From a virus, in IMG/VR virus record IMGVR_UViG_3300046534_000471, positions 1 through 20,491 of that record: DNA of 20,491 nucleotides. One strand, given 5' to 3'. The translations under genes and the position numbers were made by a program. This document shows, in pieces, positions 1 to 20,491 of this stretch (the stretch's first letter is position 1; each line of letters begins with the position of its first letter). The notes under the pieces are model-generated. The model was given only the letters and a program-made list of their open reading frames with translations. It was not told the DNA's origin and did not search any database.

Positions 1-948
1 GATGTTTTGGTGTATAAAGGTAAGGCTGGAGTGCTTAATGCTTACTACAATGCTGAAAAATATAAGCCTGATGACATCGTTACGTATTCAGACCGCAAGG
101 AATCTATTAAGAAACCTAAAGAAGTAGGATTTCCATACTACTACGAGAAGCTTACCAAGATATTGTTTGGTAGACGCTTCGGTGAGGTAGCAGTAGTTGG
201 TGCAGGTGTAAGTGTAGGTAAGACAGACTTTATCATGTCGCAGATTGCATTCGATTTAAAGCAGGGCTGGAATGTAGGTACGTTCATGTTAGAGCAGGAT
301 GTAGACGAGAGCTTTCAGCGGATAGCAGGTAAGATAGACGAATGCTTTTATCACAATCCTGATATTCCAATCAATGCAGAGCAATTAGATATTACTGGAG
401 AGAGATACTTTGAGTCACAACTTTTTGTGTTTAACAACTTTGGTAGTAATCAGTGGGAAACGATTAAAGAGAAGATACGGTATATGTATCACAGCTACGA
501 CTGTAAAATCTTTTATATTGACAACCTCACGGCATTGAATGCACATGCTTCAGATGAACGGCGTAATCTTGATGGTTTAATGGCAGAAGTAGCAGGATTA
601 GCCAAAGAGCTAGGCATTTGGATTATGTTGGTTAGTCACCTTAACCCTCCGAAGAAAGGCGTAAGCCATGAGTCGGGCGGAAGGACGGAGCAAGCTCAGT
701 TCACAGGTTCGAGAGCTATTATGCGCTGGGCAAATGTAATGTTTGGCATTGAGCGCAACACACTACACGACAAGCCTAGCGAGCGTAACAAAGGCTTGAT
801 ACGAGTGCTGAAGGACAGGTTCAGTGGAGGTGCTACGGGACTCACAACAGGATTCAGATACGAACCGACGAACGGGGTTGTATATGAGACTGAGGAGGTC
901 GACTTTCAAATAGAAAAAACAGGAGGGGATGATGACAACGATTTTTGA
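1..948 (+). CDS. Replicative DNA helicase, T7 gp4/DnaB-like, 5'-truncated by window
   Basis: Hexameric, NTP-driven 5'-3' helicase of the RecA/DnaB fold. The reading frame is open to base 1 (Asp-Val-Leu-Val...), so the TTG at 7 is unlikely to be the start and the gene probably continues upstream, perhaps into a primase domain. Counting from that TTG codon: Walker A GAGVSVGKT at 65-73, Walker B IFYIDNL around 168-174, the H3 motif MLVSHL at 207-212, the H4-like segment GSRAIMRWAN near 234-243, and RVLKDRFSG at 266-274, where Arg271 matches the arginine-finger segment RFTG of T7 gp4. The protein ends in an acidic tail with a terminal Phe (GGDDDNDF), as in T7 gp4, where this tail contacts the polymerase. 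The gene overlaps the polymerase gene by about 20 nt, which suggests translational coupling. The family is secure; the primase half is not visible. Confidence 0.9.
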   Translation, partial: DVLVYKGKAGVLNAYYNAEKYKPDDIVTYSDRKESIKKPKEVGFPYYYEKLTKILFGRRFGEVAVVGAGVSVGKTDFIMSQIAFDLKQGWNVGTFMLEQDVDESFQRIAGKIDECFYHNPDIPINAEQLDITGERYFESQLFVFNNFGSNQWETIKEKIRYMYHSYDCKIFYIDNLTALNAHASDERRNLDGLMAEVAGLAKELGIWIMLVSHLNPPKKGVSHESGGRTEQAQFTGSRAIMRWANVMFGIERNTLHDKPSERNKGLIRVLKDRFSGGATGLTTGFRYEPTNGVVYETEEVDFQIEKTGGDDDNDF

Positions 949-4111: not shown

Positions 4112-4190
4112 TTACGATGAATACCAAGATGACAAGTGCAAAGAGCGCACATATAAACCAAAACCTAAAGATAGTGAAGGGGTGGACTGA
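4101..4190 (+). CDS. Possible 29-aa small protein
   Basis: An ATG at 4101, ten bases after AGGAAG (4085-4090), opens a 29-codon frame: MPASYDEYQDDKC..., ending in KPKPKDSEGVD. It overlaps the end of the exported-protein gene by 11 nt, as is usual in this genome, and stops before the putative nrdJ promoter. The product would be charged and probably unstructured, with one Cys. There is no family resemblance. Without comparison to related phages it cannot be told from a chance frame. Confidence 0.3.
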   Translation: MPASYDEYQDDKCKERTYKPKPKDSEGVD

Positions 4191-4216
4191 CACCTTCCCC
4201 CCTATTAACTTATACA
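4187..4216 (+). promoter_or_regulatory. Candidate sigma70-type promoter before nrdJ
   Basis: CTGACA at 4187-4192 is followed after 18 nt by TATACA at 4211-4216, 26 nt before the nrdJ ATG at 4243. Each hexamer differs by one base from the bacterial consensus TTGACA / TATAAT. An 11-mer TTATACAATTA (4210-4220) recurs before the capsid gene (12508-12518). The spacer contains a run of C. This is a weak prediction from pattern only. Confidence 0.3.
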
Positions 4217-4242
4217 ATTATACAAGAACAGAAAGAACTCCT

Positions 4243-6093
4243 ATGGACAATAGCCAAGAAATACTATCAGAAATTACCGTCTTCAATAAGTACGCCAAGT
4301 TTTTACCCGCGCAAGAGCGTAGAGAGACTTGGGCAGAATTAGTTGACCGCAACAAAGAAATGCACCAAAAGAAGTATCCCGCCTTTACTGAGGAAATTGA
4401 AGAAGCTTACAAATATGTATACGCCAAAAAGATTCTACCCTCAATGCGAAGCTTGCAGTTTGGAGGCGCCCCTATTGAGTTGAGCAACAACCGTATGTTT
4501 AACTGCGCGTTTAGTCCTGCTGACCACCCGGCTGTGTTCAGTGAGACAATGTTTAACCTACTAGGGGGTAGTGGCGTAGGCTACTCAGTACAGAAGCGTC
4601 ACACAGAGCAGCTACCGACCGTTGTAGGTACTCTAGAACGCCAACGTAGGTTCTTAGTAGGGGATTCAATTGAAGGCTGGGCAGACGCTGTTAAAGTGCT
4701 TATCAAGGCCTACACTAAAGGCAAGAGCGACCCGCAGTTTGACTTCCGAGACATTAGACACAAGGGAGCTAGACTAGTAACAAGCGGTGGCAAAGCCCCC
4801 GGCCCCGACCCATTACGTATCTGCTTAGACAAGCTTCGTAGTGTACTTAACAATGCCATAGGTAGAAAACTACAGCCTTTAGAAGTGCACGACATGATTT
4901 GTCACATTGCCGACTCAGTATTGTCAGGTGGTATCCGTAGAGCAGCCTTAATTTGTTTGTTCGATAAAGATGACCTAGACATGCTATCAGCTAAGGCTGG
5001 CGCTTGGTGGGAACTAAACCCACAACGAGGCCGTGCTAATAACTCAGTCGTCCTTCACCGCGATGAAGTAACAGGCGGCGAGTGGAAAGAGATTTGGAAG
5101 AAGGTAGAGGACTCAGGCAGTGGCGAACCGGGCGTGTTCTGGACTAATGATTATGATATGGGAAGCAACCCTTGCTGCGAAATCGCACTGAATGCAAACC
5201 AATATTGTAACTTAACAGAGTGCAATGTAAGTGATGTAGACACACAAGAAGAGTTGAACAGCCGTGTTAAAGCAGCGACTTTAATTGGTACACTACAAGC
5301 TGGCTACACTGACTTCCATTACCTACGCTCAGTGTGGAAAGAAACAACAGAACGAGAAGCTTTACTAGGCATTTCTATGACAGGCATTGGCAGTGGGACT
5401 GTTCTTAAGCTAGACCTTAAGATGGCAGCTACTATAACTAAACAGGAGAATGAACGTGTCGCCACTATTATTGGTATTAACAGCTCTGCTCGCATTACTA
5501 CTGTCAAGCCTGCCGGGACAACCTCACTGGTCTTGGGTTCAAGTAGTGGCATCCACGCTTGGCATAATGACTATTATATTCGCCGTATGCGTGTTGGTAA
5601 GAACGAGCCTTTATATGCTTACATGAAAGAGAAAGTACCAGCCCTGATTGAAGACTGTGTACACAAACCTCACTTAGAAGCGGTAATGAGTTTCCCGCAG
5701 AAAGCACCAGAGGGCGCTATGCTACGGACGGAGAGCTACGTGGACTTGCTAGAGCGTGTTAGACGCTTTAACCAAGAGTGGATTGGGAACGGTCACAACT
5801 ACGGCAACAACACACACAATGTAAGCTGTACTATCTCATTGAAAGATGACGAGTGGGAAGAATGTGGCGAGTGGATGTGGAACAACCGTGAAGAGTATAC
5901 AGGTATTTCTGTACTACCTTACAACGGCGGTACCTATCAGCAAGCACCATTTGAGGACTGTACTAAAGAAGAGTTTAACGAGCTATACCAACACTTAGCC
6001 TCTATTGACTTATCTGAAGTGAAAGAGACAGAAGACAACACAGAAGCCAAAGACAACATTGCCTGTAGCGGCGGCACTTGCGAAATTACATAA
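4243..6093 (+). CDS. nrdJ: Adenosylcobalamin-dependent (class II) ribonucleotide reductase NrdJ
   Basis: Reduces ribonucleotides to deoxyribonucleotides with an adenosylcobalamin-generated thiyl radical, needing no oxygen and no second subunit. Family marks, numbered from the chosen start: MFNCAFSP (Cys88, first redox cysteine), GGSGVGYSV (108-116), KGARLVTSGGKAPGPDPL (174-191), NNSVVLHRD (266-274), SNPCCEIAL (Cys311 the likely thiyl residue, Glu313 the base), YCNLTE (Cys322, partner of Cys88), TVKPAGTTS (420-428), SVLPYNGGTYQQAP (556-569) and the C-terminal redox pair CSGGTC (Cys608, Cys613), as in the Lactobacillus enzyme. The family normally has NPCGEI; here Gly is Cys. Length is 616 aa against 739 for the Lactobacillus enzyme, and no ATP-cone is seen. 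The frame is open from 4117, but conserved reductase sequence begins after the ATG at 4243, which has GAAAG nearby. Monomeric NrdJ type most likely. Confidence 0.95.
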   Translation: MDNSQEILSEITVFNKYAKFLPAQERRETWAELVDRNKEMHQKKYPAFTEEIEEAYKYVYAKKILPSMRSLQFGGAPIELSNNRMFNCAFSPADHPAVFSETMFNLLGGSGVGYSVQKRHTEQLPTVVGTLERQRRFLVGDSIEGWADAVKVLIKAYTKGKSDPQFDFRDIRHKGARLVTSGGKAPGPDPLRICLDKLRSVLNNAIGRKLQPLEVHDMICHIADSVLSGGIRRAALICLFDKDDLDMLSAKAGAWWELNPQRGRANNSVVLHRDEVTGGEWKEIWKKVEDSGSGEPGVFWTNDYDMGSNPCCEIALNANQYCNLTECNVSDVDTQEELNSRVKAATLIGTLQAGYTDFHYLRSVWKETTEREALLGISMTGIGSGTVLKLDLKMAATITKQENERVATIIGINSSARITTVKPAGTTSLVLGSSSGIHAWHNDYYIRRMRVGKNEPLYAYMKEKVPALIEDCVHKPHLEAVMSFPQKAPEGAMLRTESYVDLLERVRRFNQEWIGNGHNYGNNTHNVSCTISLKDDEWEECGEWMWNNREEYTGISVLPYNGGTYQQAPFEDCTKEEFNELYQHLASIDLSEVKETEDNTEAKDNIACSGGTCEIT

Positions 6094-6114: not shown

Positions 6115-6717
6115 ATGGACGAAGAAGCAGGTATTAAAGAGTTAGTTAGGTTATTAAGCGCTAAACACAAAGCAAATGAATGGGATTCAGTTGTTCCGAT
6201 TAAGAAAGAGGGCGACACCTTTCACTGCTACCTTACAGGAGATGTTGAGGCTCCCGAAGTGTACAACGAAGTATGTCATGTGCTCGACCACACCACTTCC
6301 GACGAGAAAGTTGTCTTACACATCAACACGCCGGGAGGCTACATCGACAGCGCCTTTAAATTGGTAGCTTCCATCAAACGCTCGAAAGCGGCTGTGAAGG
6401 GAAGGCTTACAGGCACTGTAGCTAGTGCAGGAACCATCATCGCTTTATCTTGTGACGAGCTTGAGGTAGAGAAGTATACATGCATGATGATACACAACTA
6501 CTCAACAGGTACTTCAGGGAAAGGGCACGAGGTTATGGACTATATTAACTTTAACGACCGTACTCTGAAGCAAACATTCAAAGATGTCTACTGCGGCTTT
6601 TTAACTGAAGACGAAACACAGGAAGTGCTCAAAGGAAAGGATTTTTGGCTTACGTATAAGGAAGTAGCTGAACGCTGGGAAAAATTTAAAGGAGAACTGA
6701 ATGACGGTAACAAATAG
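6115..6717 (+). CDS. ClpP-like serine protease
   Basis: A 200-aa ClpP/crotonase-fold peptidase. Visible features: oxyanion-region motif INTPGG (70-75), nucleophile Ser104 in TGTVASAGTII, His127 in MMIHNYSTG and Asp176 in LKGKDFWLT. The Ser-His and His-Asp spacings (23 and 49) are close to E. coli ClpP (25 and 49), so the triad looks complete. The ATG at 6115 follows AAAGGAG with 7 nt spacing. The last 17 nt overlap the phosphoesterase gene. In many phages ClpP-like enzymes act as prohead proteases beside the portal, but this one sits in the metabolic operon between nrdJ and a phosphoesterase, far from the capsid genes. A role in degrading host or phage proteins, perhaps with a host Clp ATPase, is as likely. 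No unfoldase is visible here. Confidence 0.88.
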   Translation: MDEEAGIKELVRLLSAKHKANEWDSVVPIKKEGDTFHCYLTGDVEAPEVYNEVCHVLDHTTSDEKVVLHINTPGGYIDSAFKLVASIKRSKAAVKGRLTGTVASAGTIIALSCDELEVEKYTCMMIHNYSTGTSGKGHEVMDYINFNDRTLKQTFKDVYCGFLTEDETQEVLKGKDFWLTYKEVAERWEKFKGELNDGNK

Positions 6718-9661: not shown

Positions 9662-11233
9662 ATGGCTCAACAAAATACATACACAGCTGAGGAGCTTATT
9701 GAGCTACAGGGAGATTCTAAGACAATCTTTTCAAAGCTCGATGCAGACCGTTCAGGCGTACTTGATAGGGCGCGAGAATGTTCAAAGTTAACTATTCCGT
9801 CTGTAATTACCGAAGATGGGCATACAGAGACAGACGATTTAGCGTCTCCTTACCAATCAGTAGGCAGTCGGCTAGTTCATAACTTAGCGAGTAAGTTGCT
9901 CTTGGCCTTGCTACCTCCGAACACTAGCTTTTTTAGATTGCTCCCAAGCGATGACGTTAAAGCAGCACTAAATGAGCAAGAAGGCGCTAACGACGAGCTA
10001 GATAAAAACCTAGTGTCTTTAGAGCAGACTATGATGAAACAGATTGAGCGCGAAGCAATTCGGGTTCCTATCTTTGAAGCTTGTAAGAGCTTAATTATCG
10101 GCGGCAACGGCTTGTTGTATAAAACTGATGAAGGCATTAAAAGCTACAAGATGGCCAATTTTGTAGTCTCTAGGGATTACACAGGCAACCCTGTACAAAT
10201 CATTGCTAAAGAAGCTGTCACACGAGACACGCTACCTGAAGACATACGCAACCAATTATCAGACGACGCAGAAGTTGCGGACGGCGCTAAGGTAACTATC
10301 TATACTAGAGCTATCTATAAAGAAGGTTATTGGTATGAGTTCCAAGAAGTTGAAAGCGTCTATGTAGAAGACTCACTTGTGCGCTACAACAAACCTACTG
10401 AACTACGGTTTATTCCGTTACGATGGACTTCAATCAATGGCGAGAACTATGGTCGCGGCTTAGTAGAGCAATACTTAGGCGACTTCCGCTCAGTGGAGGG
10501 CTTATCTCAATTACTAATTGAATCGTCAGCTGTAATGTCGAGAGTATTGTTTGGTAAACGAGCAGGCTCTACAGTAGACATCGACGATATTAACGAAGCT
10601 GAAAATGGCATCTGTATCTTAGGTGACTTGGAAAACGATATTACTACCCTTCGTGTTGATAAGGGTGCTGATATGCAAGTACCGTTACAAATGGTACAAG
10701 ACCTTGTGCGTCGCCTTGAGCAAGCTTTCTTAGTTGCTTCTGCCGCAGCGCGTGATTCAGAAAGAACTACTGCTACAGAGATTCGTTATATGGCAGCCGA
10801 CCTTGAGAAATCACTAGGTGGCGTCTACAGCGTATTGTCCTTAGAACTACAACGACCACTTGCTTACTTATTACTCAGTCAATCTAAAGCCGACGTACAG
10901 TCACTCGGCATTGATATGGTTATTGTAACAGGAATTGAAGCGCTTGGGCGTAACGTAGAGCTAGATAAGATTCGTCAGTTCAACCAACTCATTCAAGAGT
11001 TAGGAAGTCCTGAAATTATTCTTAGTAGACTTAATGTCGGTGTATACATAGAGAAAATAGCTAATAGCTTGTCCCTTGATGTTACTGACTTAATTAAAAC
11101 TGAAGAGCAAATACAGCAAGAACAGCAAGCTGCTCAACAACAACAGCTACAGCAACAAGGGGCTCAAAACCTAGTTGACCAAGGCACAACAGAATTACCG
11201 CAACAAATGATGCAACAACAATCACAAGGCTAA
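9662..11233 (+). CDS. Portal (head-to-tail connecting) protein, T7 gp8 family
   Basis: A 523-aa protein close in length to T7 gp8 (536 aa). It forms the dodecameric ring at the unique vertex through which DNA is packaged and ejected and to which the tail tube is attached. Family-typical segments: DLASPYQSVGSRLVHNLASKL (about 59-79), LLPPNTSFFRL (83-93), the clip/wing region with VSRDYTGNP, LRWTSINGENYGRGLVEQYLGD, and DSERTTATEIRYMAADLEKSLGG, which closely resembles the T7 segment AERVTAEEIRYVASELEDTLGG. The last 50 residues are very Gln-rich (QQEQQAAQQQQLQQQ) and probably disordered. The ATG follows AGGAGA with 6 nt spacing. Confidence 0.95.
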   Translation: MAQQNTYTAEELIELQGDSKTIFSKLDADRSGVLDRARECSKLTIPSVITEDGHTETDDLASPYQSVGSRLVHNLASKLLLALLPPNTSFFRLLPSDDVKAALNEQEGANDELDKNLVSLEQTMMKQIEREAIRVPIFEACKSLIIGGNGLLYKTDEGIKSYKMANFVVSRDYTGNPVQIIAKEAVTRDTLPEDIRNQLSDDAEVADGAKVTIYTRAIYKEGYWYEFQEVESVYVEDSLVRYNKPTELRFIPLRWTSINGENYGRGLVEQYLGDFRSVEGLSQLLIESSAVMSRVLFGKRAGSTVDIDDINEAENGICILGDLENDITTLRVDKGADMQVPLQMVQDLVRRLEQAFLVASAAARDSERTTATEIRYMAADLEKSLGGVYSVLSLELQRPLAYLLLSQSKADVQSLGIDMVIVTGIEALGRNVELDKIRQFNQLIQELGSPEIILSRLNVGVYIEKIANSLSLDVTDLIKTEEQIQQEQQAAQQQQLQQQGAQNLVDQGTTELPQQMMQQQSQG

Positions 11234-14204: not shown

Positions 14205-16715
14205 ATGCCAAAGGTACATAAAGTCTACCCTCCATTTTACAACGGAGTTTCACAGCAAAATCCTGAATTGATACTAGACAATCAATGTAAAGAGATGGTA
14301 AATTGCATTCCTAGTGTTGTTGAAGGCCTTCTAAAAAGACCTCCTGTAAACCACCAATCAACAATTCTCTTTGCTGACAGCCCTGAGTTTACTGGCGGGA
14401 ACGTCTTTCACACGTATGACCGTGGAGAAGATGCCGAAGAGTACATTTTTATAGAAACAAGCGACTACGACAACCCAGTACAGGTTTTTAATCTAGCTGG
14501 TGAGCCTATGACTGTTGAGTTTGAAGCGGCGCACGCAACTACAATTAAAGATTACTTAGCTAATAGCAGCCTTAAAGCCTTAACTGTGCAAGATAGAACT
14601 TGGATGTTTTCACGGAATGCTTTAATTGGGATAGACAACACAGAAACCTTTCCTTTAAAGGCAGAGTATACTAGGGAAGCTTACTTCTGGCTAAAACGAG
14701 GCAGTGGCGATAGATACAACCCATATAACTATGCAGTGTATCTTGATGGGGTAGCAATTCAAGTAAACCCTAACAAGCCCTCTGTCCAAACGTATGACCC
14801 TGCTACTGGGTATGAAGACTCTGATTATGCAGCGGCTCAATTAGGCGCTCTGATTAGTGGGGCATCAACTTCTACACAAGAGACCTCTCAATACCTTGCA
14901 GCTAATGAAACAAAAACTGTTAGTATATATATTGGAGCAGGGAAAGAACTAGCTGACCCAGCAAACTCTTATGTGTTACCTCCAAATTATACAGCTCCAG
15001 CTTCCTATAGTGGTCACCGGGCATACTCTCTTGTTGTAACTGCGGAAACATACGACGCGGTAACAGGGTATTATACAGTAACCCTTCAGAATACCTCAAC
15101 TACTTTTTACTGTGACACAGCTACTATGGGCGGGTGTACTTCAGGCCATTACACTACAGATGTAGCAATGACCTTTTCGTACAGTGTGCTCTTTGCGGCT
15201 GCGGTAGGCTACGTAGCAGAAGTCAAAGGCTCTATAATTAAAATTACACGAGAAGACGGCGGCGATTTTGAGTTTAGTAGCTGGGACTCTTGGGGCAACC
15301 AAGCCTCTATCGGGTGGAAACAGTCTGTAAATAAAATTACAGATTTACCTAAAGACCATCCTTTTGCGGATACATACGTTAAAATTACCGGGGAAGAACA
15401 AACAACCTTTACTGATTACTTCGTAAAATGGAACGGCTCCTCTTGGGAAGAAACTTTAGACCCTGAAGAAAATCGGGGCGTACTGTCCAATATGCCAATT
15501 AAACTTGATAGGACTACACTTGTTGCAGGCGTAGCTACTTTTAAGTTTGACGTAATTGATTGGACAGCCCCTCGCGTCGGAAACCTTGAAAACAATCCTA
15601 ACCCTTCCTTTGCACCAAGTGAGGGAGGCTTACAGCGAGCAATTCAAGATATGTTCTTTTATAAGAATAGGTTAGGTATTGCATCGGATGATAGTATTGT
15701 TTTATCAGAAACCGCTAACTATACAAACTTTTATATTGCATCGGTAGTTTCTGCGTTAGACACAGATATTATCGACGTTACAGTGGCTACTAACCAAGCT
15801 AGTAAAATTCACTTTACAAAACCGTTTAATAACTCGTTGTACATCTTTACAAAGTATGCACAATATGAGTTGGTCAGTGAAAGAGCGTTTAGCCCTGACT
15901 CAGTCTCTTTAGTCAACACATCCAATTATCCGATGGCAACCAATGTTGAGCCTGTTGTAGTTAATGACAGTTTATACTTTATCTCAACGACTAACAATCG
16001 ACAACAACTACGTCAGTATATCAAATCAGATAACTTAAATATTGTAGGTATCGACTTAAATGTCAGCACTCCAACTTACTTAGCTGACCCTGTGCGTACC
16101 TTAATTGTGGATGGCGTACTAGGCTACATTGTGTGTACTACTGATACAAACGAAGTATACTTATATAACTTTAAAGAAGATGGCACTACTCGTATTCAAT
16201 CAGCATGGAGCAAATGGTCACTATTAAACGGCCTGACTGCAACTGCAAATTCTTTTGAATATCACGGTCTTTCTTCAAACCTTCTAGTATTTTGTAAGAC
16301 TGCTACCGATTATCGCTACCATAAATTACAACTAGATTCAAATGTACTTAATGGTAAAGTAGATACTTCTTCAGTTGACCATGTAGTATTTGACTCCTAC
16401 AACTATACATCCAGTGTAAAACTACCTGACTACTATCCTCTAATTACAGATATTAGGTCGCCTAAGCACAAGCTACTGATTAAAAAAGTAACGATTGAGG
16501 GCGAAGGGGCGTTTGACGCCTCAGTATATCGTAAGGATTATGACACAACTTACACAAAAACACATAATTTATCGTTGAAAGACTTAGACTTAACTGTAGC
16601 ATCACGGGTAGGTAACGTAGATATTACAGTATACGACGCTTCTGAAAATGATTTTAAATTAACCTCGGTTATAGTAGAAGGCATGCTAACAGTAACTTCT
16701 AAAGAAATGAAATAA
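14205..16715 (+). CDS. Tail tubular protein B (T7 gp12-like)
   Basis: An 836-aa protein (T7 gp12 is 794 aa) forming the nozzle of the short tail. The N-terminus has the hallmark YPPFYNGVSQQNPEL (8-22), then NCIPSVVEGLLKRPPV (34-49), equivalent to the GGISQQP and EGLQKRPP motifs of T7. The middle is beta-rich, with the FKFDVIDWTAPRVGN and FFYKNRLGIASDDSIVLSET segments (the latter about 484-503) typical of this family, followed by beta-propeller-like stretches and a C-terminal VIVEGMLTVTSKEMK. Insertions at about 210-345 with Ser/Thr/Tyr-rich sequence may account for the extra length. A strong AGGAGG binding site lies before the ATG at 14205. Confidence 0.93.
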   Translation: MPKVHKVYPPFYNGVSQQNPELILDNQCKEMVNCIPSVVEGLLKRPPVNHQSTILFADSPEFTGGNVFHTYDRGEDAEEYIFIETSDYDNPVQVFNLAGEPMTVEFEAAHATTIKDYLANSSLKALTVQDRTWMFSRNALIGIDNTETFPLKAEYTREAYFWLKRGSGDRYNPYNYAVYLDGVAIQVNPNKPSVQTYDPATGYEDSDYAAAQLGALISGASTSTQETSQYLAANETKTVSIYIGAGKELADPANSYVLPPNYTAPASYSGHRAYSLVVTAETYDAVTGYYTVTLQNTSTTFYCDTATMGGCTSGHYTTDVAMTFSYSVLFAAAVGYVAEVKGSIIKITREDGGDFEFSSWDSWGNQASIGWKQSVNKITDLPKDHPFADTYVKITGEEQTTFTDYFVKWNGSSWEETLDPEENRGVLSNMPIKLDRTTLVAGVATFKFDVIDWTAPRVGNLENNPNPSFAPSEGGLQRAIQDMFFYKNRLGIASDDSIVLSETANYTNFYIASVVSALDTDIIDVTVATNQASKIHFTKPFNNSLYIFTKYAQYELVSERAFSPDSVSLVNTSNYPMATNVEPVVVNDSLYFISTTNNRQQLRQYIKSDNLNIVGIDLNVSTPTYLADPVRTLIVDGVLGYIVCTTDTNEVYLYNFKEDGTTRIQSAWSKWSLLNGLTATANSFEYHGLSSNLLVFCKTATDYRYHKLQLDSNVLNGKVDTSSVDHVVFDSYNYTSSVKLPDYYPLITDIRSPKHKLLIKKVTIEGEGAFDASVYRKDYDTTYTKTHNLSLKDLDLTVASRVGNVDITVYDASENDFKLTSVIVEGMLTVTSKEMK

Positions 16716-16724
16716 GGAAAATAT

Positions 16725-17684
16725 ATGGAAACTCCAGCGAGACACTCCTTCACATTAGACGGCGCAACAAGGGTCTTCCCAATACCTTCTGATTTAAAAG
16801 GCGATAACTATGTAAGGCTCGAAGTTGATGGTGTAATTGTTGTTGATAGGGCAAAATATGACCTTGTTAATAATGCGGTTGTATTTAGCAACGTAGCGGA
16901 CTTGCCTTCGGGCAGTCAGCTTGACGTTCTTGTGGTACAATCAGAAGAAGCCATAGGCGCTTTGGCTATTACAACAAATATTGACATTGTGGCTACAAAT
17001 ATAAGCAACATCAATCTTGTAGGCCTTGATATCGCCTCTATCAACACTGCCTCTGCTAATATAGTAGATATACAAAATGCTGCGGCAAACGCGGCTTCAG
17101 CTACAGCGTCTGAGACTGCTACAGCAGCAGATAGGATTGCTACAGCAGCAGATAAAGTTTCTACTAATGCAGATAGAGTAGCAATTGAAACCTTATATGA
17201 TAATTTTGATGACCGGTATTTAGGGACGAAGGCAGCAGACCCTGCTCTAGATAATGATGGCGCGGCTTTGTTAATAGGCGCTACATACTACAACAGCACT
17301 TATAGCACAACTAGGTTCTATAACGGCGTTGATTGGGAATCTCCTCAAGAAACTGCGACCACAGGGGCTGCTACAGCTTCTGCACAGGCAACTATTGCTA
17401 CAGAAAAAGCAGCGATAGTAGTTGGTATATTTGATAGTGTTATTTCTGTTGTCAAAGTTAATACATCTTATGTTGCATCAGCAGGGCAAACTACTTTTAC
17501 ACAAGCTTACGATGTAGGCGCTGTTGATGTATATGTTGAAGGCCTTAAATTAGTGCCTGTTTTAGACTTTGCAGCTACTGACGGCACAACCTTAGTATTA
17601 ACATCAGCGCTGACTGTGGGCAAAAACGTAGAGATTATATCTCACGGCGTTGTTTCGAGTTCAGCTTCTCAGGTTGAATGGTGA
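16725..17684 (+). CDS. Tail fibre-like protein with T7-fibre-type N-terminus
   Basis: A 319-aa modular protein. Residues 6-75 (HSFTLDGATRVFPIPSDL, then YVRLEVDGVIVV, YDLVNN) look like the tail-attachment domain of T7-type fibres. Residues 85-155 are a heptad-like Ala/Asn coil (NIDIVATNISNINLVG; TAADRIA-TAADKVS-TNADRVA), probably a trimeric stalk. Residues 161-204 (FDDRYLGTKAADPALDNDG, then ATYYN, FYNGVDWE) are a module shared by many phage fibres. Residues 247-308 (TSYVASAGQTTFTQAYDVG, then VDVYVEGLKLV, VEIISHG) are another common fibre module that resembles the N-terminal domain in layout. No receptor-binding tip or chaperone is seen and the protein is short for a whole fibre, so it may be an adaptor to which later gene products attach. 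AAGGAAAA lies before the ATG. Confidence 0.8.
   Translation: METPARHSFTLDGATRVFPIPSDLKGDNYVRLEVDGVIVVDRAKYDLVNNAVVFSNVADLPSGSQLDVLVVQSEEAIGALAITTNIDIVATNISNINLVGLDIASINTASANIVDIQNAAANAASATASETATAADRIATAADKVSTNADRVAIETLYDNFDDRYLGTKAADPALDNDGAALLIGATYYNSTYSTTRFYNGVDWESPQETATTGAATASAQATIATEKAAIVVGIFDSVISVVKVNTSYVASAGQTTFTQAYDVGAVDVYVEGLKLVPVLDFAATDGTTLVLTSALTVGKNVEIISHGVVSSSASQVEW
17117..17154 (+). repeat. Direct repeat (17 bp, period 21) in the fibre stalk
   Basis: TGCTACAGCAGCAGATA occurs at 17117-17133 and 17138-17154. The 21-bp period encodes the heptads TAADRIA and TAADKVS, with a diverged third copy TNADRVA, which marks growth of the coiled-coil stalk by tandem duplication. Confidence 0.8.
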
Positions 17685-17869
17685 TGCTAGGAAACATAGA
17701 ACGGGCTAATTACGATTGGCGAGAAGCGGATGAAATAGCGGCTAATACAGCACAAGCAGCCCTCTTAACTATCAACCAAGCGGGGCAAGAGTTAGTGTTA
17801 ATAAACAACATAGCTAGACAACTACAAACCCAAAAGGTAATTTTACAAGGAAAAATAAATGGCGACTAA
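17678..17869 (+). CDS. Small helical protein of the tail-fibre region (63 aa)
   Basis: I do not recognise this protein. It begins MVMLGNIERANYDWREADE and continues as one long amphipathic helix (IAANTAQAALLTINQAGQE, LVLINNIARQLQTQKVIL). Two starts are possible: the ATG at 17678, or the ATG at 17684, which shares a base with the fibre stop (TGATG) and would give 61 aa. There is no strong binding site, so it is probably coupled to the fibre gene. It overlaps the next gene by 11 nt. The helix could pack onto the fibre stalk or adaptor. Confidence 0.6.
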   Translation: MVMLGNIERANYDWREADEIAANTAQAALLTINQAGQELVLINNIARQLQTQKVILQGKINGD

Positions 17870-18068
17870 TGAAAGCGTAATGATTGATTTTACAACACAA
17901 GCTTCAGCGTTATTTGAAGCTTCTTCCACTATACAAGATACTGTAGCTGCTGATATTGCGGCAGCTGTACTGGTTTCTGAAAATGCAGCACAAATTCCGT
18001 TGGCTCAAGTAGCTACAAACGTAATAGTCACGCAGACTATGCTTGTCAATCTTATAGCGGGTAATTAA
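17859..18068 (+). CDS. Small Ala-rich protein of the tail-fibre region (69 aa)
   Basis: I do not recognise this protein. It reads MATNESVMIDFTTQASALFE followed by Ala/Val/Thr-rich helix (TVAADIAAAVLVSENAAQIP, then QVATNVIVTQTMLVNLIAGN). Hydrophobic residues are spaced in heptad style rather than as a continuous membrane segment, so a coiled coil or helix bundle fits better than a holin. AAGGAAAA lies before the ATG. Together with its 63-aa neighbour it lies between two fibre-type genes. A small holin was considered but there is no endolysin beside it. Confidence 0.6.
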   Translation: MATNESVMIDFTTQASALFEASSTIQDTVAADIAAAVLVSENAAQIPLAQVATNVIVTQTMLVNLIAGN

Positions 18069-18070
18069 TT

Positions 18071-18685
18071 ATGACAATTGAAACCGAAGTAGCTGGCTTA
18101 ACTAGCGCGACTACTGCACTAACAACGGCAGTGGGAGTACAACAAACATCTATAGTTTCTGCTGTAGCAGGGTTTGCGACCACCACAACAAGAGTTAATG
18201 GCCTTAACAATGTAGAGAATACGGCTGATGCTGATAAACCGCTTAGTGACGCTGCGGTAGCTGAGTTTACAAGCTATGTAGAAACAACTAATTTAGCAAC
18301 TATAAATGGACAGCCAATAAACACAGGTCTTGCATTGTTAATCGCAAGCAGTCCTACATCGTTGACAAGCGCATTGTACGATTCCCGTGCTGCTTTACGT
18401 AGCCCAGTTAACCCTCAACCTATCGCAGGAGATGCTTTAATCTTAGAATACCTTGGACTGTTTCAGTTTTACACAACAGTTACCGAGCCTGATGATGACG
18501 AGACTTGTTTTACAGCAAACGACACCTCTACTGGATTACCGTATGGGCAATGGCGTTTAAGAGTGCCAGCGTATGAATGGACAGAGGCTCACGAAAAAAT
18601 TGAGTTTAGAGCATTAGAAGAGTGGCGTGATGATATGGACTCCACGATTTCTTTACTGCTAACAGCATATAACTTGCACCACTAA
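18071..18685 (+). CDS. Tail fibre module protein (204 aa)
   Basis: Residues 1-40 are a Thr/Ala-rich helix. Residues 41-70 carry RVNGLNNVENTADADKPLSD, a close variant of the GLGNVDNTSDADKPIS module found in many phage side-tail and collagen-like fibres. Residues 125-165 (EYLGLFQFYTTVTEPDDDET, then GQWRL) match another fibre module, LGLFrw..s...DDetvi...grWl. The C-terminal 35 residues form a charged helix (TEAHEKIEFRALEEWRDDMD) ending in NLHH. It is therefore a tail-appendage protein made of an oligomerising helix, a linker module and a small beta domain. There is no recognisable binding tip. Only 2 nt separate it from the preceding gene, and the binding site is weak. Confidence 0.65.
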   Translation: MTIETEVAGLTSATTALTTAVGVQQTSIVSAVAGFATTTTRVNGLNNVENTADADKPLSDAAVAEFTSYVETTNLATINGQPINTGLALLIASSPTSLTSALYDSRAALRSPVNPQPIAGDALILEYLGLFQFYTTVTEPDDDETCFTANDTSTGLPYGQWRLRVPAYEWTEAHEKIEFRALEEWRDDMDSTISLLLTAYNLHH

Positions 18686-18700
18686 AATAAGGACAAACTA

Positions 18701-20137
18701 ATGTCAGAATTAAGAGCATTAAGATTATTAAACGCAGTAGAGAACGGCACGGTTTTAGGTGCAGAATTTAACACATACTTAGGCGATGCAGGTAGGCTTG
18801 CTGAATTTACAGTCCTTCTAGCACAGCGAGGACAAGCTAAACGTATTGCAAACGGACAGACAACAATGACTGCGGTGGTCGCCAGCACTATTGCAATTAA
18901 CGCAGCTATTGTACAAGCAACAGCCTCTAACGACACAGTAGTCAAAGCGGTAGTCGCTAGTGCATTGGCTATGAGCACAGTGGCGGGTAATGCTAGTGTG
19001 CTTGAGAAAGTATCAGACAACCCTACGTCTTGGACTAATTTTATTGGTTCGGTATACTATGAATCACACATTAAAGACATTATAGCTAATCTAGCAGGGG
19101 TTGACCCTTCTCTTTATGCTACTACTGCGTTGCTAGTATTAGACCCGGCATCGATGGGTGACATTAGTATTAGTGAAAGAGCGATGCGTGCGTTAGTTAA
19201 TAGCACACCAACTGTTTCTACATTAGCAGGGAACTCAGCAGCAATGGCTTTAGTCGCAGCAGATACGGTTGCAATAACTCTAGTGGCACAGCAAACATCA
19301 ATCATGCCTACCATTGCAGCTAATACCCAAGCAATGGGTGAGATAATTTCACGCAGTGTTGCTACAGGTTTGATGGCTTCAAACGCAGGAGCTATTCAAG
19401 CAATTGCGGCTAACAGCACAGCATGGGCAGCATTTAAACTAGGCTCTTATTTATCAGCTAACTTAAAGAATGTCATTGCAAATATTGCAGGATTGAATCC
19501 GAGTGACTACGCAGATGCAACAGCGATGGCAGTTAATGCAACAGCGATGGCAGCAATTGTTCTTAATACTCAAGCGATGGAAGCCCTAGCAACTGACTCG
19601 GCAGCAATGACAGCTTTAGCTAACGACGCTAACGCATCACTTGTAATCGGTAGCACATTAGCAATGGGTGTACTTGGCGCAGACGAAGCATTCTTAATTG
19701 CAATGCTAGGTAACAGCGCATTAACAGCAAGCATCTTTGCAAGTTCTACTTTCAAAAACCTAATCATGGCATCCACTCCGTTAGTTGATGCGATTGCGGC
19801 TAACTCAGCGATTGTTGCCTTCTTAACAGCATCTTCTTCAACAGCTATGCCAGCAACATTAAGGTCTAGCACAACAGCGGCAGATGACCCATTCGATGGC
19901 ATTCCAACTAAAGTATTAAGCTTGTACGCCAAAGGTAATACAATTGTTGCTACCGCTGTTAATCACGACTTTGATGGCTCTCCAGCAGTTGGTACTGGTG
20001 CAACAGATGTTATCGGATTGGCTGGTACATTCACAACAGCTCATGTTAAAGGTTACACAAATATGACTTGGACAGTGGCAGGTATTGCAGCAACAGCAGC
20101 AGCATCACCTATCTTAACTTATTACGACATGACTTAA
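18701..20137 (+). CDS. Ala-rich decapeptide-repeat tail protein (478 aa)
   Basis: Residues 1-50 form a non-repeated start (ELRALRLLNAVENGTVLGAE, then RGQAKRIANG). Three repeat blocks follow (about 54-109, 141-240, 272-380) with a 10-residue unit of consensus AM-x-x-[IL]-A-x-N-[ST]-x; between 161 and 250 nine units follow without a gap. Blocks 1 and 2 each end in a copy of a spacer: TSWTNFIGSVYYESHIKDII (109-128) with ANLAGVDPSLYA, and TAWAAFKLGSYLSANLKNVI (240-259) with ANIAGLNPSDYA. Residues 385-478 form a distinct C-terminal domain (DGIPTKVLSLYAKGNTIVAT, then ATDVIGLAGTF, YTNMTWTVAG), possibly beta-rich and the exposed tip. No catalytic motif, signal peptide or membrane segment is seen. AAGGAC lies before the ATG. 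It is probably an elongated virion appendage or adhesin; function is inferred from the fibre neighbourhood. Confidence 0.7.
   Translation: MSELRALRLLNAVENGTVLGAEFNTYLGDAGRLAEFTVLLAQRGQAKRIANGQTTMTAVVASTIAINAAIVQATASNDTVVKAVVASALAMSTVAGNASVLEKVSDNPTSWTNFIGSVYYESHIKDIIANLAGVDPSLYATTALLVLDPASMGDISISERAMRALVNSTPTVSTLAGNSAAMALVAADTVAITLVAQQTSIMPTIAANTQAMGEIISRSVATGLMASNAGAIQAIAANSTAWAAFKLGSYLSANLKNVIANIAGLNPSDYADATAMAVNATAMAAIVLNTQAMEALATDSAAMTALANDANASLVIGSTLAMGVLGADEAFLIAMLGNSALTASIFASSTFKNLIMASTPLVDAIAANSAIVAFLTASSSTAMPATLRSSTTAADDPFDGIPTKVLSLYAKGNTIVATAVNHDFDGSPAVGTGATDVIGLAGTFTTAHVKGYTNMTWTVAGIAATAAASPILTYYDMT
18860..19840 (+). repeat. Coding region of degenerate 30-bp (decapeptide) repeats in three blocks
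   Basis: The translated repeat unit is ten residues and recurs about 25 times in three blocks. At the DNA level the units have diverged, but local identity remains: an 18-bp direct repeat ATGCAACAGCGATGGCAG at 19515-19532 and 19536-19553 (period 21), and frequent GCAATGG / GCGATGG at unit starts. The copies are old, with some recent duplication at the third block's start. Confidence 0.75.
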
Positions 20138-20152
20138 AAGGGTATAAAAATA

Positions 20153-20491
20153 ATGAGTACAATATATAAGGTAGATACCGATGGGAGCAAGCCGCTCCTA
20201 TCTAAAGGAGAACTAGGCTACGATGATTATACGGCTGGTTCAGATACGGGCAGGGTTTATGTAGGTGACGGAGCTTCTAATATAGCTCTTGCTAGAAAGA
20301 ATGAAGTTGATTTAAAAGCACCACTAGCCTCTCCTGCTCTTACAGGTAGTCCTACAGCCCCTACACAAACCGCAAGTGATAACTCGACTAAGATTGCTTC
20401 TACAGCGTATGCAGATGCTGCCGCAGAGGCCGCAAAAACAGCCGCAGAAGCGGCGTCCTTGGCGTTGGCAGGGGGCGCTATGACAGGCCCT
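20153..20491 (+). CDS. Tail fibre protein, 3'-truncated by window
   Basis: An open frame of 113 codons runs from the ATG at 20153 to the window end without a stop. Residues 1-45 (MSTIYKVDTDGSKPLLSKGE, then LGYDD, TGRVYVGDGAS) resemble the short N-terminal attachment domain of phage tropism and fibre proteins of the kind LxxGELGY...GRlyiGdG. Next comes LKAPLASPALTGSPTAPT and DNSTKIASTAYADAA, a widespread side-tail-fibre module, then an Ala/Glu-rich coil (AAEAAKTAAEAASLALAGG) and GAMTGP, which normally introduces a repeated fibre shaft. This is probably the true receptor-binding fibre, with its tip outside the window. AAAAGGGT lies before the start. Confidence 0.8.
   Translation, partial: MSTIYKVDTDGSKPLLSKGELGYDDYTAGSDTGRVYVGDGASNIALARKNEVDLKAPLASPALTGSPTAPTQTASDNSTKIASTAYADAAAEAAKTAAEAASLALAGGAMTGP

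Follow-up and report, generated by a model that had tools for sequence, protein, structure and literature searches.

A probable tail fiber protein with decapeptide repeats and a predicted α-solenoid shaft, encoded in a gene cassette found in dissimilar phages

Introduction

Textbook tail fibers are trimeric rods built from β-structure or coiled coils. The DNA analyzed here (the window, a virus record of 20,491 bp with a T7-like podovirus gene order) encodes a 478-aa protein, referred to as P0001, in which runs of an alanine-rich ten-residue unit are separated by two copies of a spacer. What kind of shaft is formed by such a period, and what is the protein for?

Results

Ten-residue period and duplicated spacer

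The frame of P0001, with ATG at 18701, a stop codon ending at 20137, and no internal stops, specified a product with 20.9% Ala and no Cys. In a self-comparison of residues 41-385, identities of 17.6, 16.3, and 19.4% were obtained at lags of 10, 20, and 30, respectively (z = 4.7, 3.9, and 5.7), values equalled in 0, 1, and 0 of 1000 shuffles; all other lags up to 40 gave z ≤ 2, and neither a heptad nor a hendecad period was found. The first-pass annotation had described this period as almost perfect, and its significance was borne out at all three lags, but the wording was too strong: 14 units exceeded the 1% shuffle level with a decad profile, the most regular runs being residues 159-240 and 280-310. 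At the DNA level, tandem 30-bp repeats were looked for in the P0001 gene, and none were left. The three repeat blocks proposed earlier were seen (Table 1).

The same annotation had placed a copy of one spacer at the end of blocks 1 and 2, and this duplication was confirmed: 15 of 34 residues were identical between residues 107-140 and 238-271 (score of 82, reached in 0 of 2000 shuffles, the maximum of which was 50), and the top-scoring window pairs all shared the spacer offset of 131 residues. The second half of its proposed motif (K-[DN]-[IV]-I-A-N-[LI]-A-G-x-[DN]-P-S-x-Y-A) matched both copies, while the first half (WxxFxxGSxY) matched neither exactly, the openings being WTNFIGSVYY (copy 1) and WAAFKLGSYL (copy 2). 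The spacer-to-spacer distance was 129-134 residues in three homologues, and since these are only about 30% identical to P0001, the duplication must be old. Within the homologues, the direct likeness between the two copies has faded: the observed score was reached in 0 (L008), 5 (L021), and 206 (L015) of 2000 shuffles.

Table 1. Features of the window and of the P0001 gene.
Feature	Position (nt)	Residues of P0001	Strand	Evidence
Portal gene	9662-11233			phrog_449
Podovirus nozzle (tail tube B)	14205..16715		+	PF25675, E 1.8e-103
319-aa protein, candidate tail adaptor	16725..17684		+	PF03906, E 0.035 (below cut-off); tail-fiber PHROGs
69-aa cassette partner gene	17859..18068		+	homologues in L002, L008, L015, L020, L021, 41-57% identical
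204-aa cassette partner gene, candidate connector	18071..18685		+	homologue directly upstream of fiber gene in relatives
P0001, 478-aa decapeptide-repeat tail fiber protein	18701..20137		+	PHROGs; AF2 mean pLDDT 82
N-terminal anchor domain	18701..18856	1-52	+	common to proteins with differing bodies
Decapeptide block 1 (irregular)	18857..19021	53-107	+	lag analysis; AF2 helices
Spacer copy 1 (W111 ... Y139)	19022..19123	108-141	+	copy-versus-copy comparison
Decapeptide block 2	19124..19411	142-237	+	lag analysis, decad profile, AF2
Spacer copy 2 (W242 ... Y270)	19412..19516	238-272	+	copy-versus-copy comparison; resembles haloarchaeal fiber spacers
Decapeptide block 3	19517..19840	273-380	+	lag analysis, decad profile, AF2
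C-terminal β domain, putative tip	19841..20134	381-478	+	AF2 strands at pLDDT 37-63
Start of next fiber gene, cut by contig end	20153..20491		+	PF18454, E 7.6e-4 (below cut-off); tail-fiber PHROGs

Anchor domain and relatives of P0001

Relatives were gathered by degenerate DNA patterns in IMG/VR and by HMM searches, and are designated here by L numbers. Full-length homologues were 95% (L002/L003) or about 27-34% identical in alignment (L008, L015, and L021/L019), and partial ones were found in L007, L017, and L020. The N-terminal anchor (LLNAxExGTxxGAxLxxxLxDxGRLAEFxxLLxxRGQAxRIA) was 46-65% identical to those of L008, L020, L021, L163, L165, L151, and L133, the bodies of which differed; it belonged to no Pfam family, and tblastn against phages and plasmids gave no match. 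L163, L165, and L151, related by the anchor only, carried near-perfect AASSTAMTAV decapeptides and another β-like C-terminus.

Two loci illustrate how far the body may vary. In L133 (1935-3302), the anchor (58% identity across 52 residues) and the upstream partner domain were kept, but the shaft was swapped for a repetitive body that by eye looks like a β-propeller, as in a natural domain swap. In a bacterial genome, L192 (484-1131) encoded 215 aa consisting of the anchor, two to three decads, and a C-terminus ending in YFGVLRCDI; with P0001-like kinds of upstream and downstream genes, this locus is probably a prophage, and it was the sole match among 399 genomes of one order. None was found in 369 genomes of a class, where empty results prove little. 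A search by tblastn of 50,697 phage records with whole P0001, anchors, spacer, and the 204-aa partner gave no match, BLAST masking the Ala-rich part; a scan of a genome collection with the family alignment yielded no relative, and a pattern scan of genomes yielded none convincing by HMM.

A comparison of repeat number among related phages, suggested at the outset, revealed variation, with about two decads at the low end and upward of a dozen (~14) at the high end. Together with the 30-bp unit in L163 DNA (7.5 copies, 92% match), this is the expected appearance of a shaft of adjustable length. The near-perfect 30-bp tandem repeats coding for AASSTAMTAV in L163 (3308-3533) and L165 (6772-7251) are candidates for unit-by-unit length change. 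Separately, a 376-aa tail protein of L009 (1133-2260) contained near-identical 30-residue super-repeats of three decapeptides each, the sequence of which suggests amplification by 90-bp units.

Relationship to fibers of phage CDHS-1 and haloarchaeal viruses

P0001 matched phrog_7809 (E 8e-9), which scored 1181 bits with the CDHS-1-type protein, and phrog_18723 (E 5e-5), which scored 329-670 bits with proteins of the haloarchaeal viruses phiH and phiCh1. All the decapeptide-bearing family members tested matched the CDHS-1 PHROG. According to the PDB title and to citations of the preprint of Dowah et al. 2021 in PMC9615553 and PMC12680318, PDB 7QLR is gp22 (CDHS1_22) of C. difficile phage CDHS-1, a receptor-binding protein; like P0001, it is fiber-like and has a β C-terminus. 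Both proteins also contain AMxxIAxN[ST]-type decapeptides in tandem and share a fold as judged by Foldseek score, 7QLR being the best PDB match of P0001 (E 1.2e-6, TM 0.21). On the other hand, gp22 comes from a phage of a Gram-positive host and has another N-terminal region without a P0001-type anchor, and the spacer was not detected in it; the PHROG and phmmer matches fell in the repeat part of P0001, outside the anchor.

With Foldseek against BFVD, the top hit was a fiber protein of phiH ("repeat-containing capsid protein", E 5e-8), followed by one of phiCh1 ("capsid protein", E 4e-7). These genes are in fact invertible tail-fiber genes, lying within an invertible segment with a recombinase (PMC4284463, PMC6471424), and phiCh1 ORF34/36 are tail fibers that are varied by the recombinase and bind galactose through the C-terminus (PMC4284463). 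Like P0001, the proteins of phiH (PhiH1_165) and phiCh1 (ORF34/ORF36) consist of decapeptides (theirs SQTAMDAVST) broken by spacers of matching geometry. In the archaeal plan, a Trp occupies the Met position of the decad, [YF]-[AT]-D follows 25 residues on, and the next decad Met comes exactly 13 after; both P0001 spacers followed this plan with distances of 28 and 13, the archaeal spacers being 3 residues shorter. The arrangement of Trp, Tyr or Phe (25 or 28 on), and Met (+13) was thus common to all five haloarchaeal spacers, the two of P0001, and the first copy in L008, and P0001 contained the W-x(24-27)-[YF]-x(12)-M pattern of the phiH/phiCh1 fibers.

Did these repeats arise only once? A short Ala-rich helix-turn unit may be easily evolved and amplified, and the repeats of P0001-type phages, CDHS-1, and haloarchaeal viruses would then have independent origins; the low-complexity composition, the ready amplification of 30-bp units exemplified by L163, and the N- and C-termini, which differ among the three groups, are consistent with this. 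The spacer HMM of the marine family also scored phiH at E 0.38 only, under some shuffled sequences. Independent origin is nevertheless rather unlikely, in view of the common spacer plan, the scores of the five archaeal spacers with P0001 copy 2 (reached by 0-9 of 5000 shuffles; copy 1 was much weaker, with 58-1743 of 5000), the top rank of phiCh1 ORF36 with the same HMM (E 1.3e-4) among 3010 sequences, of which 3000 were shuffled, and BLASTP of P0001 against the haloarchaeal fibers (E 6e-11 and 3e-7, the former being a single comparison with phiCh1 ORF36). Common descent of the P0001 and haloarchaeal repeats and spacers is likely, but not proven.

Several traits set the haloarchaeal fibers apart: their N- and C-terminal domains are different, and they belong to myoviruses of archaeal hosts. 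No invertible segment, recombinase, or second fiber copy was recognized among the ORFs of the window, the contig of which ends 354 bp past P0001, and the galactose-binding C-terminal domain of the phiCh1 type was not found in P0001, which had no Pfam domain. A match of Peptidase_S6 on phiCh1 ORF36 (E 2e-4, below cut-off) was rejected as an effect of composition.

Gene order, and exchange of a three-gene cassette

The earlier assignment of P0001 to a tail-protein setting was supported by the nozzle and fiber-like genes upstream and a further fiber gene downstream. The closest portal among isolated phages was that of roseophage CRP-143 (43% identical). The 319-aa protein showed weak likeness to the N-terminal domain of T7 gp17, and was followed by small frames before the 204-aa gene; PF03906 (Phage_T7_tail N-terminal domain) was absent from P0001 itself in the Pfam search. 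The gene at 20153-20491 had a start like that of Mtd_N (major-tropism-determinant-N), followed by a PLASPALTGSPTAPT fiber repeat. Elsewhere in the window, a ClpP-like protease gene (6115-6717; PF00574, E 3e-11) adjoined a ribonucleotide-reductase-like gene (4117-6093).

The genes for proteins of ~69, ~200, and ~480 aa constitute a cassette: the homologues of the first two lay directly upstream of the fiber gene in L002, L008, L015, L020, and L021, and the C-terminal domain of the 204-aa partner (RAALR...LGLFQF...DDDET.F...GQW) was also found upstream in L133, L151, L163, L165, and L192. The DNA of the window was 88% identical to L002 over 17926-20139 and 91% identical to L003 over 18562-20139, and in both cases this identity ended two bases past the P0001 stop codon; outside the cassette, no similarity to the window was detectable. 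L002 and L003, separate contigs that were assumed to represent one kind of phage, differed from the window in their portal (L002, phrog_1216) and their capsid protein (L003, phrog_267). In them (L002:3-4209; L003:140-3780), the cassette came after the portal gene in L002 and before the scaffold and major capsid genes in L003, an odd position for tail-fiber genes. The L015 contig (197 kb) encoded a tail sheath, as in a contractile-tailed phage, and the loci of L163 and L165 were placed after a tape-measure gene; the module therefore crosses tail types. The 72-kb contig that carried the cassette in L020 also encoded, at L020:7807-10947, a ribonucleotide reductase of 1046 aa that is apparently interrupted by an intein, the insert of which ends in VHNC.

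A comparable case among distant marine phages is that of Alteromonas phage A5/V22, the host-recognition modules of which are common to several phage families (PMC10579305). There too, a fiber module is exchanged between morphologically distinct phages; that fiber is a different one with a chaperone partner, and the likeness is one of description.

P0001 might instead be a connector or length spacer only, with host recognition left to the fiber starting at 20153. The fiber-like nature and Mtd_N-like start of that next gene suit this idea, as does the C-terminus of P0001: between the L002/L003-type protein and P0001, block 1 and the first spacer were the most divergent parts and the C-terminus the most conserved outside the anchor (99% identical, versus 30-35% to L008/L015/L021). 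This identity between phages that recently exchanged the cassette shows no sign of tip diversification, and the phages may share a receptor. We regard the connector reading as improbable, because the fold relatives are receptor-binding fibers, relatives have the anchor followed by swapped bodies and tips, and the cassette was exchanged without the downstream gene.

Predicted structure

AF2 with an alignment of 14 sequences gave a P0001 monomer with a mean pLDDT of 81.6 and a pTM of 0.76 (pLDDT of about 75-97 over residues 1-380 and 37-63 over the last 98). The model was an α-solenoid of about 35 helices, mostly of 7-9 residues, with a median start spacing of 10; N, S, D, or T preceded 26 of the 31 post-anchor helices, as helix caps would. 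The earlier expectation that the repeat would be neither a heptad coiled coil nor a β-helix agrees with these short helices, and both folds were rejected on the basis of the period and the AF2 model. Its suggestion of an unusual solenoid held as regards a solenoid with a 10-residue repeat, but not as regards novelty, because the α-helical type has already been solved (7QLR) and is present in haloarchaeal fibers. A distinct C-terminal domain, also anticipated, emerged as a poorly modeled β domain after the solenoid. The N-terminal anchor and the three-gene cassette with its wide distribution had gone unnoticed in that annotation.

Without an alignment, AF2 was uninformative (pLDDT of 34). This value, with the Ala content and lack of Cys, is what might be expected if the repeats were an Ala/Ser/Thr-rich low-complexity stalk, be it a flexible linker or a trimeric coiled coil of the ordinary kind, in which the repeats would not pack periodically. 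Such a stalk is very improbable given a period of 10 rather than 7 or 11, short helices and turns modeled confidently throughout once relatives were supplied, the conservation of the spacer and spacer distance, and a closest solved relative (7QLR) that is folded and was matched over its length.

With Foldseek against PDB, 7QLR came first (probability of 1.00), followed by armadillo repeats (β-catenin and others), α-solenoids matched only at E 2e-3 to 1e-1. Since the TM-scores were low (about 0.2), the agreement is limited to local helix packing and does not extend to the overall curve. The armadillo repeat is eukaryotic and has about 42 residues and three helices, unlike that of P0001 with 10 residues and one helix; a repeat of about 40 residues with two or three helices, or a Pfam match to the armadillo/HEAT class, was not found in P0001. 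A Pfam match to UBQLN1 (E 0.058) was dismissed as compositional.

Discussion

We consider it highly likely that P0001 is a tail fiber of the receptor-binding type, with a docking anchor, an α-solenoid shaft, and a β tip, and part of an exchangeable host-recognition cassette. Residues 1-52 would attach it to the tail, probably via the products of the two genes just upstream (69 and 204 aa) and the candidate adaptor resembling gp17 (16725-17684). Residues 53-380 would form the shaft, in which, according to the model, each decapeptide is one short helix with an N/S/D/T cap and a tight turn, so that about thirty such helices are stacked into a rod. At two points separated by 13 decads, the stack would be interrupted by a spacer that starts with a Trp in place of the decad Met. 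These spacers probably serve as joints, and the C-terminal ~98 residues, a small β domain, probably contact the host surface. By analogy, these roles of docking, joint, and tip are suggested by the naming of the closest solved relative as receptor-binding and by the fiber role of phiCh1 ORF34. Exchange of the cassette between unrelated phages fits a host-range module, which may be its purpose.

The only solved example of a solenoid shaft of ten-residue helices appears to be that of a C. difficile phage. The repeat itself is already known in the CDHS-1 protein and haloarchaeal fibers; what is added here is a three-gene cassette traveling between very different phages. We tentatively propose that bacterial and archaeal tailed viruses share, by descent, an extendable shaft in which each decapeptide forms one helix and a standard module forms the joints. 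Shaft length would be changed by gain or loss of 30-bp units and the fit to the tail and receptor by swaps of anchor and tip, and the three-gene set would be passed between podo-, sipho-, and myoviruses.

The evidence from P0001 connects the solved C. difficile shaft type with the phase-variable fibers of haloarchaeal viruses, and also with environmental phages that have several kinds of tail. It also supplies a recognizable anchor domain, absent from Pfam, behind which hypothetical proteins with an "Ala-rich repeat" become annotatable, and the family of P0001 offers a tractable model for the tuning of fiber length and the exchange of host recognition.
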